A stretch of DNA of 64,000 nt from Gemmatimonadota bacterium (GTDB lineage Bacteria > Gemmatimonadota > Gemmatimonadetes > Longimicrobiales > Gaopeijiaceae), in assembly GCA_007121455.1 (NCBI GenBank), contig SKKN01000057.1:1-64000 (forward strand). Direction: 5' to 3'. Shown one piece after another: positions 27,432 through 33,647 of the stretch (position 1 is its first letter; the number at the start of each line of letters is the position of its first letter). Under the pieces are notes generated by a model, which saw nothing but the letters and a program-made list of their open reading frames with translations, had not been told where the DNA came from and did not search any database. The position numbers and the translations under genes are program-made.

Positions 27432-28084
27432 AGTTCCCTGTTCAGAGTCTTCCAGTCCGCGAGGAAGCGCTCGAGCCCGGAATCGGTGTGCGGGTGCTTC
27501 ATGAGCTGGTAGAGTACCTTGGGCGGCAAGGTCGCGCAGTCGGCTCCGATGAGCAGGGCCTCCAGCACATGCCGGGGATGCCGGAGGGATGCGGCGAGGA
27601 TTTCCGTCTCCAGTCCGTATCGGTCGTACACCTGCCGGATCTCCGCGACGATCTCCATTCCCTCATGACCCACATCGTCGAGTCGACCCACGAATGGAGA
27701 GATGTAGGTAGCTCCGGCTTTCGCGGCGAGAAGGGCCTGCGTCGTGGAGAAGCAGAGCGTGACGTTCACTCGGGTGCCTTCGTCCCGGAGCTCCCGGCAC
27801 GCACGGAGTCCATCCTCGGTGAGCGGCACCTTCACCACGATGTTCGGGTGGATCTTCGCGAGGCGGCGACCCTCTGCTACCATCCCGTCAGCGTCGACCG
27901 CCACGACCTCGGCGCTGATGGGCCCTTCGACCGTCTCGCAGATCTCCAGGAAGATCTCCTGTGGGTCTCTCTCGCCGGCGGAGGAAGCGAGCAGGCTCGG
28001 GTTCGTGGTAATCCCGTCGATCAGGTTCGCCGACGCGGCCCTTCGGATCTCGTCCAGGTCCGCGGTGTCGAGGAAGATCTTCAT
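27428..28084 (-). CDS. tal: Transaldolase / fructose-6-phosphate aldolase family
   Basis: A short (218-residue) transaldolase of the FSA/TalC type, transferring a dihydroxyacetone unit between sugar phosphates. The Schiff-base Lys is in [13 protein letters not shown] (about residue 85), with [13 protein letters not shown] at the N-terminus, [10 protein letters not shown] near 23-32, and SPFVGRLDD near 130 as further landmarks. Sequence alone does not separate transaldolase from the aldolase activity. It overlaps truA and the htrA-like gene by 4 nt each. Confidence 0.9.
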
Positions 28085-28905
28085 GGCTCGCTATATCTCC
28101 TGGGTTCGGTGCGAGCGGGGGCATCGGGAGCCTCGCTGGAGGCCCCGGGATACTCCACCCGCGTGAGAAAGAGCCCTTCCGCGGGTGCAGGCGGAGAGGT
28201 TTCGGGATTCGGGGATCGATCGTCCAGCATCGACGAAATGTCGTCCACCGGGCGGCGCCCCCGACCTACGTCCACCATCGTACCCACGAGGTAACGCACC
28301 ATGTGGTGGAGAAATCGGTTCGCGGTGACTTTGAAGCGAAGCCCCAGGCCGTCCCACGGACTCCATTCGGCGTGTGTGATCCGGCATCGATCACCTCGCT
28401 GCGGCTGACCTGACTTCGCAAAGGCCCGGAACGAGTGCTCTCCCACGAGGTACCCGGCGGCCGTCTCCAGATGCGAGGTCCGGAGCTCCCGTTGCAGGAC
28501 CCAGCAATGGAACCGGTGGAAAGGAGAGGCGCTCTCGTCGGCGATCCCGACCCGGTACTCATAGGAGCGGGCGGATGCGTCGTACCGGGGGTGGAACCTC
28601 GGGGATACGCGCTCGGCCTCGGCGAGCCAGACGTCGCGCGGAAGTACCGCGTTCATCGCTTTGCGGAAGCGTTGGGCGTGCCAGGAGGCGGGTAGGGTGA
28701 CGGCGGCCACCTGGCCCGTGGCGTGGACCCCCCGATCGGTCCGCCCCGCTCCGACCACCGTCCGCTTCTCTCCAGTGAGACGATGAATGGCAGCCTCCAG
28801 CTCTCCCTGGACCGTTCGCTCCGTTCGCTGCACCTGCCAGCCGAAGTAGCGCGAGCCGTCGTAGTGGAGTGTGAGTTGAAGGCGGATCTCCTCCCGGGAC
28901 GTCAC
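28081..28905 (-). CDS. truA: tRNA pseudouridine synthase A (positions 38-40)
   Basis: Isomerises uridine to pseudouridine in the tRNA anticodon stem. The catalytic Asp is in [16 protein letters not shown] (about residue 57), and [14 protein letters not shown] and [14 protein letters not shown] are other TruA landmarks. The last 35 residues are a Pro/Ala/Glu-rich extension. The start is GTG 28905, which lies almost at the predicted transcription start, so the message may be leaderless. It is the first gene of the minus-strand unit running to add. Confidence 0.92.
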
Positions 28906-28911
28906 GCGGGA

Positions 28912-28939
28912 AAGGTAGAGGGGGGCTCGGCGATGTCAA
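28912..28939 (-). promoter_or_regulatory. Candidate promoter of truA operon
   Basis: Reading the minus strand, TTGACA (28939-28934) is followed after 16 bases by TACCTT (28917-28912). The expected start falls about at the GTG of truA, implying a leaderless or nearly leaderless message. Confidence 0.45.
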
Positions 28940-28955
28940 GCGCACGGGCAGGCGA

Positions 28956-28985
28956 TTGACCAGGGCCGCTCGGAATGCCTACGAT
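28956..28985 (+). promoter_or_regulatory. Candidate promoter of trpD
   Basis: TTGACC (28956-28961), an 18-base spacer and TACGAT (28980-28985) stand 45 bases before the trpD start, giving a leader of about 38 nt. It lies back to back with the truA promoter. Confidence 0.5.
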
Positions 28986-29029
28986 CCTCCGTTCCGCATG
29001 CAGATCGCGCACCTTTCGAGGAGCTTCGG

Positions 29030-30088
29030 ATGGACCTGGTGGCACTGATCGACAAGGCCTCGGCCGGAAAGGCACTCACGGTCGACGAGGCGGAGGCCGC
29101 GTTCGCCCGATTCATGGCGGGAGAGGCGAGCCCGGTTCAGGTGGCTGCGCTCCTCGTCGCTCTCCGGGCAAGAGGGGTGAGGCCCAGTGAGATCGCAGGG
29201 GGGGTAAGGGCCCTTCGCTCCGCGATGGTTCCCGTCCGGGCCGAGTCCGTAGACGAGCTCGTCGATACCTGCGGGACGGGCGGTGGGGTGAGCACCTTCA
29301 ACATATCGACGGCGGCGGCGCTCGTCGCCGCTGGGGCCGGGAGCAGGATCGCGAAGCATGGAAACCGCTCCTTCACTTCCCGCAGCGGGAGCGCGGATGT
29401 GCTCGAGGCGCTGGGCGTTCCCATCGACCTGGATGCGAGTGGGATGAGCCGGGTGCTGGAGGAGGCAGGTGTAGTCTTCATGTTCGCCCCCACCCTCCAC
29501 CCCGCGATGCGCCACGTGGGCCCGGTCCGGCGGGAGTTGGCGATCCCCACGATCATGAACCTCCTTGGGCCCCTCACGAATCCAGCCGGTGCCCGGCGGC
29601 AGGTTGTGGGCGTTTCGGATCCGGCCTCGTTGGAGCTCGTGGCCGAGGGCCTCCGTGAGTTGGGGCACCTGCGCGCCCTGGTGGTTCACGGAGAGCCCGG
29701 AATGGACGAGCTGAGCCCGCTCGGGGCGACACACGTGACGGAGCTGCACGAGGGCGAGGTCCGGAGCTGGACCATTCGTCCGGAGGACCTGGGGTTGTCG
29801 CGGGCGAGCCTGGAGTCGCTTGCCGGGGGAGAGCCGGAGGAGAACGCGGAAACCATCAAGAGGATTCTGGAGGGGACGGAGCGGGGAGGCCCTCGGAGTG
29901 CCGTGGTACTGAATGCTGCGGCCGCGATCTACGTGGCCGGGGAGGTCCGGGACCTGAAGGAGGGAGTCCGGGCGGCTGCGGAAGCCCTGGATTCGGGCCG
30001 CGCTTACGACGCGCTCGAGGCCCTTCGGGCTGCGAGCCTACGGGCGGCCGAGGGCGAAGGCCGGGGCGCTCCCGAGGGTAGAAGTTGA
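29030..30088 (+). CDS. trpD: Anthranilate phosphoribosyltransferase
   Basis: Adds phosphoribose to anthranilate in tryptophan synthesis. The PRPP-binding CGTGGG (about residues 80-85) and the NIST and KHGNRS motifs (about 91 and 108) are present, with TIMNLLGPLTNPAG near 172. Length (352) is normal. The ATG follows GAGGAG by seven bases. The gene is separated from trpC by a lexA unit on the opposite strand, so it is transcribed as its own unit; trpE and trpG are not in the window. Confidence 0.93.
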   Translation: MDLVALIDKASAGKALTVDEAEAAFARFMAGEASPVQVAALLVALRARGVRPSEIAGGVRALRSAMVPVRAESVDELVDTCGTGGGVSTFNISTAAALVAAGAGSRIAKHGNRSFTSRSGSADVLEALGVPIDLDASGMSRVLEEAGVVFMFAPTLHPAMRHVGPVRRELAIPTIMNLLGPLTNPAGARRQVVGVSDPASLELVAEGLRELGHLRALVVHGEPGMDELSPLGATHVTELHEGEVRSWTIRPEDLGLSRASLESLAGGEPEENAETIKRILEGTERGGPRSAVVLNAAAAIYVAGEVRDLKEGVRAAAEALDSGRAYDALEALRAASLRAAEGEGRGAPEGRS

Positions 30089-30097
30089 CCCATACCG

Positions 30098-30244
30098 TCA
30101 GGCGGGTTGCTTGTCGATTCTGCGGACATCGACCAGTCCGCACAGCACCCAGGGGCCCGGAAGTGGGCATTCACCTCGCTGGGCCACCAGGACCACCTCC
30201 GTGACTCTGGCCGTTACCTTTCCGACTGCAAATGGGATTCTCAT
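30098..30244 (-). CDS. Candidate 48-residue protein encoded directly behind lexA
   Basis: On the minus strand an ATG (30244-30242) with AGGAG five bases before it opens a 49-codon frame ending in TGA at 30098. It begins 22 nt after the lexA stop, in the same direction, so it is probably co-transcribed with lexA. The product begins MRIPFAVGKVTARVTEVVL, is mildly basic, has two cysteines (about 26 and 35) and no clear membrane helix. I do not recognise a family. Being in a lexA operon would place it under SOS control, as with small division inhibitors in other bacteria, but that role is only a guess. Confidence 0.5.
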   Translation of the reverse strand: MRIPFAVGKVTARVTEVVLVAQRGECPLPGPWVLCGLVDVRRIDKQPA

Positions 30245-30266
30245 GCGCTCTCCTCTCGTCCGGCGT

Positions 30267-30875
30267 TCAGTACCTTCGGATGACCCCGACGACGACCCCC
30301 TGAATCACCACGTCGTTTGCGTCGACCACGATCGGTGCTACCGCATCGTTCGCCGGCTGTAGGCGGATGCGGTTTCCCTTCTCGCGGTATAGCTTTTTCA
30401 TCGTTGCGGACTCGCCGCCGACGAGCGCCACGACCATCTCCCCTTCTTCGGCGACCGGGCGGTGGTTCACCACGATGTAATCACCATCGCGGACCTGTTC
30501 GTCGATCATGGAGTCGCCCTGGACGCGAAGCACGTAGTTTCTGCCCCGTTTCCGGAGCATGTCCGGCGGCACCTGAACGGTCTCCGTGTCCTGAACCGCT
30601 TCGATCGGTTGGCCGGCGGCCACCCGCCCGAGGAGCGGAAGCTCGGCGGCTCCCGTGTCGGACTCCCGGTACGTGATCTGGATGGAGCGACTCTCGTTGA
30701 AGGACTTCCGGATGTAGCCCTTCCGCTCCAGATTGCTTAGATGTTCGTGCACGGTAGCGAGGGAGGAGTACCCGCAGGCATCCGCGATCTCCTCGAAGCT
30801 GGGCGCGTAGCCGTGTTCCTGAATGTAGGCATCGATGAGGTCGAGGATCTCTTTCTGCCGCTTGGTGAGAGGCAT
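30267..30875 (-). CDS. lexA: LexA repressor
   Basis: The SOS repressor: binds operators and cleaves itself when RecA is activated by DNA damage. A winged-helix domain fills residues 1-65 (SSLATVHEHLSNLERKGYI is the recognition region). The cleavage bond is Ala87-Gly88 (GRVAAGQP), and the Ser-Lys dyad is Ser122 (GDSMID) and Lys160 (ATMKK). The start ATG 30875 has GGAGG just before it; the frame also has an ATG at 30887, but that one lacks a ribosome site and LexA proteins begin near MPLTKRQ. A strong promoter with two repeat elements lies upstream, and a small ORF follows. Confidence 0.93.
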   Translation of the reverse strand: MPLTKRQKEILDLIDAYIQEHGYAPSFEEIADACGYSSLATVHEHLSNLERKGYIRKSFNESRSIQITYRESDTGAAELPLLGRVAAGQPIEAVQDTETVQVPPDMLRKRGRNYVLRVQGDSMIDEQVRDGDYIVVNHRPVAEEGEMVVALVGGESATMKKLYREKGNRIRLQPANDAVAPIVVDANDVVIQGVVVGVIRRY

Positions 30876-30896
30876 CTCCTCCTCCATGAGTGAGGG

Positions 30897-30939
30897 CCCG
30901 AAGAACTACCGAAAAAGGATACCCGAAGATTGACCGAAA
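30897..30939 (-). promoter_or_regulatory. Two-copy direct repeat, candidate LexA operator
   Basis: Two 18-base copies, CCCGAAGAACTACCGAAA (30897-30914) and CCCGAAGATTGACCGAAA (30922-30939, + strand), differ only in the four middle bases. Each copy is itself a direct repeat: CCGAA then CCGAA 11 bases on (minus strand TTCGG-N6-TTCGG). One copy fills the -35/-10 spacer and the other covers the start point of lexA. The trpC start codon (30930) lies inside the upstream copy. Confidence 0.55.
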
Positions 30940-30944
30940 CGCAA
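30916..30944 (-). promoter_or_regulatory. lexA promoter
   Basis: Minus strand: TTGCGT (30944-30939), exactly 17 bases, then TATCCT (30921-30916). Transcription should start near 30909, about 34 nt before the lexA ATG. The whole spacer is one of the two repeat elements described next. Confidence 0.65.
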
Positions 30945-31757
30945 GAGAACGCCAATATCAAGCCGATCCTCGCGAGAATCGTCGAGACGAAGCAGACGGA
31001 GGTCGTCGCGCTGAAGGGACGGATCGCAGAGCTCACCGCCCGAGCCCGGGACAGACCCCCGGCGCGTGACTTCCGGGGTGCGCTCGCTTCAGGGGGAAAC
31101 GTCGCCCTGATCGCCGAGGTGAAGCGGCGCTCGCCGGGTGCTGGTGCGATCCGATCGGACCTTGATCCAGGAGTACTCGCCGCGCAGTATGAGCGAGGCG
31201 GAGCCAGCGCCATCTCCGTGCTCACGGACCGTGACTACTTCGGGGGAGCTCTTTCGGACCTGAAACGAGCCAGGGAGACGACGAGCCTTCCGGCACTGCG
31301 GAAGGACTTCATCCTCGACGAGGCACAGGTGTGGGAGGCGCGATCTGCGGATGCGGACGCAGTGCTCCTCATCGTACGGATCCTGGAGGACGAACAGCTC
31401 GTCGGTCTGAGGGTACTTGCCGAGGAGCTGGGGATGGCGGCCCTCGTGGAGGTGCACCACGACGAAGAGTTGGACCGGGCGCTCGAGTCGGGGGCGCAGA
31501 TCGTGGGGATCAACAACCGCGATCTCCGTACCTTCCGGACGACCCTCGACGTCACTCTCGGTCTGCTCTCGCGAGTGCCGGGCGACCGACTGCTCGTGTC
31601 CGAGAGCGGGATTCGGGATGGAGACGACGTTCGACGGCTCGGAGCCTCGGGAGTGGACGCGGTACTGGTCGGAGAGTCTCTGCTTCGGGCGGACGCACCG
31701 TCCGTTGCAGTCGCTGAACTGGCCGGGCACCCGCGGGCAGCACGGCGCCATGGCTGA
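30930..31757 (+). CDS. trpC: Indole-3-glycerol-phosphate synthase
   Basis: Closes the indole ring in tryptophan synthesis. The (beta/alpha)8 barrel shows IAEVKRRSPGAG (about residues 62-73, with the catalytic Lys), SVLTDRDYFGG near 96-106, LRKDFILDEAQV near 121-132 and GINNRDLRTF near 193-202. Length 275. The start is TTG 30930, which sits within a repeat of the lexA operator region and has no clear ribosome site; no better start is in frame before the conserved part. It overlaps trpF by 8 nt. Confidence 0.92.
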   Translation: MTETQENANIKPILARIVETKQTEVVALKGRIAELTARARDRPPARDFRGALASGGNVALIAEVKRRSPGAGAIRSDLDPGVLAAQYERGGASAISVLTDRDYFGGALSDLKRARETTSLPALRKDFILDEAQVWEARSADADAVLLIVRILEDEQLVGLRVLAEELGMAALVEVHHDEELDRALESGAQIVGINNRDLRTFRTTLDVTLGLLSRVPGDRLLVSESGIRDGDDVRRLGASGVDAVLVGESLLRADAPSVAVAELAGHPRAARRHG

Positions 31758-32445
31758 GCCCGGGGGGGAGGCCCGGCTACGGATCAAGGTCTGCGGCCTC
31801 ACGCGGCCGGACGATGCCCGGGCGGTCGCGGACGCCGGCGCGGACTATGTCGGTGCGGTGCTCGTCCCGGGGTCGCCGCGTACGATCTCCGCGCGGGAAG
31901 CGCGTGCCATAGGGCGGGCGGCGGGTTTGCCACTCGTTCTCGTGGTCGCCGGGGAGGACCCGGAGGAGACGGTCCGCGCGGCCCGCGAGTCGGCCGCTGC
32001 AGTGGTTCAGCTCCACGGAGACGAAGTCCCCGAGGTGGTCGATCAGGTCCGATCCGGGGGACCATGGAAGGTCTGGGTCGCGGCCAGGGTGCGGGACCTG
32101 CGGAGCGTGGAGTCTCGTATCACGCTCCTCGGCGGCCTCGCAGACGGGTTGTTGCTCGACGGGTGGGATCCGGAACGGCTCGGTGGCACGGGAAACCCGT
32201 TTCTCTGGGGAAATTTCACCGACATCCGTTCCCGGATGCCCCACGGAATGGAGTTGATCGTCGCAGGCGGTCTTCGTCCCGAAAATGTGGGCGAAGCCGT
32301 GGAGACGCTGTCTCCGGACATCGTGGATGTGAGCTCCGGCGTTGAATCGATCCCGGGACGGAAGGACCCGGCTCGCGTGCGGGAGTTCGTTCGTGCAGCT
32401 CGTGGTCCCGATCACCGCAGGAAGGAGGAAGGCGCATCATCGTGA
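31750..32445 (+). CDS. trpF: Phosphoribosylanthranilate isomerase
   Basis: Isomerises phosphoribosylanthranilate. A 231-residue barrel with the catalytic Cys in [12 protein letters not shown] (about residue 15) and the catalytic Asp in [15 protein letters not shown] (about 137). The frame is open upstream into trpC, but the conserved part starts at ATG 31750. The stop shares GTGA with the trpB GTG. Confidence 0.91.
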
Positions 32446-33647
32446 ACAGCAAGGCTGTCACTCCGGACATGGGACGCTTCGGAAGCTTCGGGGGACGCTA
32501 CGTTCCCGAAACCCTCGTGGCGGCGCTCGACGAGCTCGATAGCGCGTACTCGGCGGCCGGCCGGGATCCTGCCTTCCACGAGGAGCTGCAGGCCCTGTTG
32601 CGCGACTTCGTCGGACGGCCCACACCGCTCTATCGAGCTCGGCGGCTCGAGGAGGCAGCCGGCGGTGGCCCGATCTACCTCAAGAGGGAGGACCTGAACC
32701 ACACGGGCGCCCACAAGATCAACAACACCATGGGCCAGGCTCTCCTCGCGCGGCGGATGGGCAAGCGGCGGGTGATCGCCGAGACCGGAGCGGGCCAGCA
32801 CGGCGTCGCGACGGCCACGGCATGTGCGCTCTTCGATCTCGAATGCGTGATCTACATGGGCGACGAGGACGTCGAGCGGCAGGGCTTGAACGTCTACCGC
32901 ATGGAGTTGCTCGGCGCGGAGGTGCGGGCCGTGAGCGCGGGGACCCGTACGCTCAAGGACGCGACGAACGAAGCGATCCGGGACTGGGTGACGAACGTCA
33001 CCGACACGCACTACATCATCGGATCCGTGGTCGGTCCGGACCCCTTCCCTCGGATCGTCAGGGACTTCCAGGCGGTGATCGGCCGCGAGACGAGGGAGCA
33101 GATCCAGACGCTCGAGGGGCGCCTGCCCGGAGTCGTCGTCGCATGCGTGGGCGGAGGCTCCAACGCGATGGGCATATTCCATGCCTTTGTCGAGGACCCC
33201 GGCGTCGACCTGGTGGGGGTGGAGGCAGCAGGAGAGGGGGTCGCGAGCGGCCGGCACTCGGCCTCGCTCTCGGAGGGACGCCCGGGCGTGCTCCACGGTG
33301 CTCTGAGCTACCTGTTGCAGGACGAGGATGGTCAGGTCGCACCGGCGCACTCCGTCTCCGCTGGCCTCGACTATCCCGGCGTGGGGCCGGAGCATGCGTT
33401 CCTGATGGAGGCCGGGCGGGCCCGATACGTCTCGGTCACGGACCATGAGGCGCTCGGTGCGTTCCACCGTCTGTCACGGCTCGAAGGGATCATCCCCGCG
33501 CTGGAGACGGCGCATGCCCTCGCCTTCGTCCTGGCCGAGGGCAAGGAGCTGGCGGAGCACGGCCCCGTCGTCGTCAGCTTGAGTGGCCGCGGCGACAAGG
33601 ACGTGGCGCACGTGGCCGGGATCGAGCGGGCAGGGGCGAGGGAATGA
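32442..33647 (+). CDS. trpB: Tryptophan synthase beta chain
   Basis: PLP enzyme joining indole and serine to make tryptophan. The PLP Lys is in [15 protein letters not shown] (about residue 91), followed by [12 protein letters not shown] and the phosphate-binding [13 protein letters not shown] (about 235-247). The cation/COMM region [15 protein letters not shown] is present. 401 residues, normal. GGAGG lies 17-20 bases upstream of the GTG, further than usual, so coupling with trpF may matter. Its stop overlaps the HEAT-repeat gene by 4 nt. Confidence 0.95.

Follow-up and report, generated by a model that had tools for sequence, protein, structure and literature searches.

Within the window, the whole stretch of 64,000 nucleotides analysed here, lexA and a small open reading frame (ORF) lie between trpD and trpC and on the strand opposite to them. 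The features of this locus are the following.

29030..30088, plus strand: trpD, converging on the small gene (context).
30098..30244, minus strand: coding sequence of the small-protein gene, 48 codons for 48 amino acids, with homologues 3' of lexA and purifying selection in relatives.
30250..30254, minus strand: Shine-Dalgarno sequence AGGAG, 5 nt 5' of the ATG of the small gene; at least 4 nt of AGGAGG occur at 60 of 75 distinct family loci.
30267..30887, minus strand: lexA, with a conserved MPLT start at 30875, matching TIGR00498 above its cut-off and also Pfam.
30898..30913, minus strand: putative LexA operator 2, TTCGGTAGTTCTTCGG, a TTCGG-N6-TTCGG repeat just 3' of the -10 element.
30916..30944, minus strand: putative lexA promoter TTGCGT-17 nt-TATCCT, picked by eye and unlisted by the consensus scan, which requires 9 of 12 positions.
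30923..30938, minus strand: putative LexA operator 1, TTCGGTCAATCTTCGG, a TTCGG-N6-TTCGG repeat within the promoter spacer.
30930..31757, plus strand: trpC, diverging from lexA, with its TTG start inside operator 1 (context).

Read from the sequence, the small gene starts with the ATG at 30242–30244 and stops with the TGA at 30098–30100, and a gap of 22 nt (30245–30266) separates it from the end of lexA at 30267. The ORF structure given in the initial annotation (48 codons on the minus strand, AGGAG at a spacing of 5, 22 nt 3' of lexA, closed by TGA) is reproduced on re-reading, and its description of a peptide having two cysteines and no membrane helix is likewise confirmed for the window's peptide. 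The highest Kyte-Doolittle value of any 19-residue stretch of this peptide is 1.39, which by that measure indicates no membrane helix; over 75 family loci the top value is a borderline 1.64 (L013). The two cysteines are not characteristic of the family, since the first 42 residues are free of cysteine in 64 of 75 distinct loci. The size of the ORF is unremarkable, because 61 ORFs of at least 25 amino acids overlap positions 28000–32500, and it is conservation that raises it above chance. A scan of the window found no terminator-like site between lexA and the small gene, and the consensus promoter scan found no promoter-like site at lexA.

Conservation, selection and family anatomy

When the window's peptide was searched against 58 genomes drawn from its family and order, its own among them, the 20 top-ranking places other than itself (E <= 0.0402) included 18 directly 3' of lexA; in these 18 places lexA is present on the same locus of ~3 kb and the matching frame follows it on the same strand. 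One of the two exceptions (L012, in genome G044) has internal stops and no lexA and is a chance match; the true copy in that genome was located later, 3' of its lexA. The other (L015, in G038) lies near a contig end, and the LexA match of that genome is on another contig, ending at residue 186. A profile built from 34 members (alignment A2) was then run against all 154 genomes of the order. At E <= 1e-4 it matches 75 places in 72 genomes, of which 73 are 3' of lexA on the same strand and the remaining two (G038 and G157) are near contig ends, a proportion that is partly circular because the rows of A2 were taken from places found 3' of lexA; the unbiased positional figure is the 18 of 20 from the single-peptide query. 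Relaxing the threshold to E <= 0.01 gives matches in 78 of the 154 genomes, and 76 of 86 places are 3' of lexA, the lexA and small-gene matches being 3 to 273 nt apart. The ten places away from lexA comprise the two near contig ends at E <= 1e-4 and eight weak matches (E 0.002 or more). Counted by genome, the small gene is 3' of lexA in 74 of the 138 genomes of the order that have a LexA match, and its near-exclusive location is directly 3' of lexA. The initial annotation had staked the gene on conservation of the frame at this position in relatives; the search was run, the frame is conserved, and the gene is upheld.

Selection was assessed in 12 closely related, non-independent pairs (two of 14, which were out of register, were left out of this test). 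The pN/pS ratio is 0.23 in frame, whereas the two alternative sense frames give 1.68 and 2.31, and differences at codon positions 1, 2 and 3 number 45, 31 and 143. The three antisense frames give 1.44, 0.35 and 2.56, the frame with 0.35 being the one that mirrors the sense frame. The pooled ratio over a second set of pairs, also non-independent, is 0.32. As judged from these codon patterns, purifying selection is acting at the protein level. The small ORF is a genuine gene, and its predicted product of ~45 amino acids is kept in one position across dozens of genera of one Gemmatimonadota group. Because evolution has kept that position across dozens of genera, the small protein is probably a working part of the DNA-damage response.

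The family has a core of about 40 amino acids with a motif of approximately FxVGR-x9-VV-x7-PIPGPWxLxAVV, in which the residues invariant or nearly so in A2 are G8, G30, P31 and W32 (window numbering). Among 75 distinct loci, which include two weak ones (L157 and L215) and one lacking a start codon (L020), the core is full-length in 61, with GPW or GPF in 58 of those, and partial in 14; length differences among members leave the frame open. The start codon is ATG in 71 loci and GTG in three, with none found in one. The distance from the lexA stop to the start ranges from -4 to 255 nt with a median of 51, and is at most 30 nt in 32 of the 75 loci. In eight loci, seven of them from family f2, the start overlaps the lexA stop (ATG or GTG at -1 or -4), and in five of these seven a GGAGG at Shine-Dalgarno distance falls within the final lexA codons. 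To judge by this arrangement, LexA and the small protein are probably co-translated. In genus g12 (L018, L172, L173, L201–L205 and L207) the N-terminal half is conserved and the C-terminal GPW half is replaced, suggesting either two separable parts or decay.

The AlphaFold model of the window's protein is weak (mean pLDDT 66.5, pTM 0.38) and places three strands at residues 5–9, 15–21 and 32–39; that of a second member is also weak (mean pLDDT 56.7). A Foldseek search with the weak model returned a best E of 1.8 and no interpretable PDB fold match. Three members searched against Pfam and NCBIfam at E <= 10 gave no match. The 34 A2 members searched at E <= 1 against Pfam, NCBIfam, PHROGs and PADLOC gave single-member matches alone, the best at E 0.06; three of these are to other families in Pfam or NCBIfam (E 0.13 or weaker) and five are in PHROGs (E 0.06 or weaker, none significant). 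A PDB sequence-profile search gave none at E <= 10, and tblastn with one shortened member gave no match in 50,697 phage records or in plasmids. By these searches the small-protein family appears to be absent from every library consulted (Pfam, NCBIfam, PHROGs, PADLOC and PDB). Searches of mainly open literature found nothing on LexA or the SOS response of Gemmatimonadota among the matches listed, and no small ORF of this kind in a lexA operon among the matches listed. One paper among those listed (PMC8745188) deals with a Staphylococcus aureus RNA that is antisense to lexA, which is an unrelated matter.

A putative LexA operator upstream of the gene pair

The direct repeat TTCGG-N6-TTCGG occurs upstream of lexA at least once in 81 of 84 distinct regions and at least twice in 76, and in none of 1,680 shuffled upstream regions. 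The three regions lacking it (L072–L074) come from Sumerlaeota, an unclassified bacterium and Acidobacteriota, respectively. It is found upstream of lexA with or without the small gene. In the window's own genome there are 26 exact matches to the repeat, versus three to the reversed pattern. Apart from the pair at lexA, one lies ~30 nt upstream of a Y-family polymerase gene (Pfam IMS, ImuB-like); in NCBIfam this gene matches models of DNA polymerase IV, with scores far short of the cut-offs. Another lies directly 5' of what is probably the ATG of a dnaE-type polymerase gene, part of which is in the locus and whose best NCBIfam match, 'error-prone DNA polymerase', is below cut-off; here "upstream" depends on the start chosen, because the longest ORF begins before the repeat. 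These two polymerase-gene repeats are at C55:70522 and C55:87945 of the same genome (L239 and L240). Most of the other 22 matches lie inside predicted ORFs as judged by eye, at least two (L234 and L235) being intergenic, so that the short repeat by itself is no proof of an operator. Nevertheless, because it also precedes the Y-family polymerase and dnaE-type genes, TTCGG-N6-TTCGG is very likely the LexA operator, on evidence that is good though indirect, and an operator is thereby proposed for LexA in Gemmatimonadota. Alphaproteobacterial LexA recognizes a direct repeat whose period is likewise 11 bases.

The small gene, in turn, is very likely a member of the SOS regulon. The suggestion in the initial annotation of an SOS-linked small protein is supported by its position 3' of lexA, the starts overlapping the lexA stop in 8 of 75 loci, the lack of a terminator-like site between the two genes in the window scan, and the LexA-type operator-like repeats. 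Putative operator 1 (30923–30938) also covers the TTG start (30930) of the divergent trpC, so that LexA may also control trpC together with the genes that follow it.

Distribution, gain and loss

The carriers are Gemmatimonadota, and the gene is present in five (L061–L064 and L066) of the ten nearest named records (L061–L070). On a LexA tree of 111 rows, in which 28 of 108 inner branches are well supported, the gene is found in 10 of 10 rows of family f2 (L215 being matched weakly), in 17 of 17 rows of f3 and in none of 11 rows from other families. The 73 rows of f1 divide into 32 with a full gene, 14 with a partial one and 27 with no detectable small gene. These proportions are not frequencies, because possession of the gene was in part a reason for including a locus. 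The tree requires at least 10 gains or losses; the simplest account would be that the common ancestor of the order had the gene and that several losses followed inside f1. In several gene-less f1 genomes (e.g. L143, L147 and L152) trpD ends close downstream of lexA, which fits a clean absence of the small gene. Over evolution the gene is dispensable, several lineages keeping lexA without it or with part of it, and LexA works without the small protein, since 27 of 73 f1 rows lack the gene and 14 of 73 have it in part.

Outside the order, a search of 298 genomes of the phylum gave five weak matches. In the stretches of four that were checked, one (G235, family f7) is 3' of lexA and three have no lexA in the stretch. 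A maximum-sensitivity scan of 52 lexA loci from other families, one of which (L262) has almost no sequence 3' of lexA, gave the same G235 place as its single match (E 4.1e-9; best reverse-strand control 0.044). The G235 member (L247), located 3' of lexA, has an N-terminal extension. Fifteen genomes reached via other loci gave one weak match (E 0.003).

The ImuB-like polymerase is matched at E <= 1e-25 in 73 of the 154 genomes of the order, all of them from family f1. A co-occurrence of the small gene with ImuB was considered and dropped, as carriers and non-carriers are both found among the ImuB genomes and no simple rule emerges.

A proposed partner of LexA and the alternatives

LexA is the master regulator of the bacterial response to DNA damage and is usually pictured as a self-contained switch. 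To our knowledge, two accessory proteins are on record, the phage-encoded gp7 for LexA and DdrR for a LexA-like repressor. We tentatively propose, at slightly below even chances, that lexA and the small gene form a two-gene operon in which the small protein is translated right after LexA and acts on it. Both genes would be carried on one transcript, and TTCGG-N6-TTCGG would serve as the operator at which LexA represses the pair, with expression rising after DNA damage. The small protein would then act on LexA or on the LexA-RecA* step, tuning repressor binding or self-cleavage, and its predicted strand-rich core (F-x-V-G-R, V-V and G-P-W-x-L-x-A-V-V) could provide the contact surface on LexA. 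LexA is its most likely target because the small protein would be made wherever LexA is made and almost never away from lexA.

The leading mechanism is thus by analogy a LexA accessory protein resembling gp7 or DdrR. The protein gp7 of Bacillus phage GIL01, as described in the accessible text of PMC4551915, binds LexA, strengthens its DNA binding and hinders RecA-mediated self-cleavage. The likeness is that of a small protein tied to LexA and concerns the proposed action, which for the present protein is a prediction; gp7 is phage-encoded, whereas the present protein is chromosomal, encoded 3' of lexA and without a significant PHROGs match. In the accessible parts of PMC7273328 and PMC11332147, DdrR of Acinetobacter is chromosomal, encoded beside umuDAb and under the same control, and acts as a corepressor with UmuDAb; it has 78 or 81 amino acids, is divergent from umuDAb and occurs in a genus without LexA (PMC7273328, likewise as far as accessible). 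The ddrR gene and the present one are both cases of a small gene beside the gene of a LexA-type repressor (73 of 75 places for the present family) and probably co-controlled with it, but the present protein has a core of ~40 amino acids and its gene follows lexA on the same strand, whereas ddrR is divergent. A fuller version of the proposal, in which a chromosomal LexA cofactor, a dedicated partner of ~45 residues, sets operator binding or the threshold of self-cleavage on TTCGG-N6-TTCGG operators, is given somewhat less than even chances. The question whether LexA has a resident partner becomes testable with two purified proteins.

The main rival to a LexA accessory protein is a soluble SOS effector made together with LexA and directed at FtsZ, another division protein or a polymerase, resembling SulA in action but from another family; we regard it as rather unlikely. 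The yneA and sulA genes are located beside lexA in several bacteria, including what we take to be a lexA-sulA pair in Pseudomonas, which a literature search did not confirm. Pfam includes a SulA model, and none of the 34 members matches SulA in Pfam or NCBIfam at E <= 1. In the accessible text of PMC13396833, YneA is a small SOS-induced division inhibitor with a membrane helix and a LysM domain, and SulA is a soluble SOS protein that inhibits division. The present protein resembles YneA in being small, with putative SOS control here versus SOS induction of YneA, but has no membrane helix (maximum hydropathy 1.39) and no Pfam match at E <= 10, hence no LysM, so that the window's peptide is not of the YneA type. 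A soluble inhibitor of the SulA type remains compatible, because the lack of a membrane helix fits a soluble protein; however, there is no SulA match, and the present protein is far shorter than SulA. The YneA- or SulA-like division block put forward in the initial annotation therefore finds no support, the peptide having no hydropathy helix, no LysM or SulA match and no significant relative.

An effector of another family would nevertheless agree with the SOS-type promoter shared with lexA, since shared SOS control would suit an effector no less than a partner of LexA, and with its loss in some lineages, which fits a dispensable effector. SOS-induced small division inhibitors are moreover a known theme (PMC13396833, in its accessible text). 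On the other hand, no helix, LysM or SulA match marks the window's peptide as such an inhibitor, and the occurrence of the gene does not track the ImuB-like polymerase, which is confined to 73 genomes, all of f1, while f2 and f3 also carry the small gene. Coupling to lexA raises a further difficulty. Even in undamaged cells lexA normally has a basal level of expression, so that any toxic inhibitor coupled to this gene would be produced constantly.

A small protein acting on RecA or on the LexA-RecA* interface, and so setting the speed at which the SOS response is switched on and off, is improbable. DinI, RecX and PsiB act on the RecA side of the SOS response and are named here as analogues unrelated in sequence. 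The genetic evidence that suggests a LexA partner applies equally to a RecA partner, but the observed link is to lexA, and no significant homology was found in the libraries searched.

Very improbable is a pseudogene in decay, derived from the 3' end of lexA by duplication or displacement. The position of the ORF, a faint by-eye resemblance to the last strands of LexA, and the degenerate look of some lineages, such as g12 without the GPW half, would accord with such an origin. This visual hint of homology to the C-terminus of LexA is rejected by hhalign (probability 0.1 percent across 8 columns), and the frame is under purifying selection; even in g12 all pairs among the matches listed have dN/dS below 1 (0 to 0.79). 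The selection test thus refutes decay as a general explanation. Hardly credible at all is a conserved regulatory RNA or 3' UTR element in which the frame is open by chance, for which we found no supporting observations and which is refuted by the dominance of synonymous changes in the selection tests, while length differences among members keep the frame open and the sole Rfam match at E <= 1 lies in trpC (E 0.12; 16.1 bits, with the threshold at 40).

Returning to the proposed LexA partner, the columns of LexA were compared between the 32 f1 carriers and the 27 non-carriers; the best-separating columns lie in the linker and catalytic domain, with kinship ignored in the comparison, and give no obvious interface. 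The LexA frames of two genomes each contain one internal stop, TAG in G260 (G260:C52:46708-47316) and TGA in G029 (G029:C18:47929-48543), which may reflect either sequencing error or real loss.
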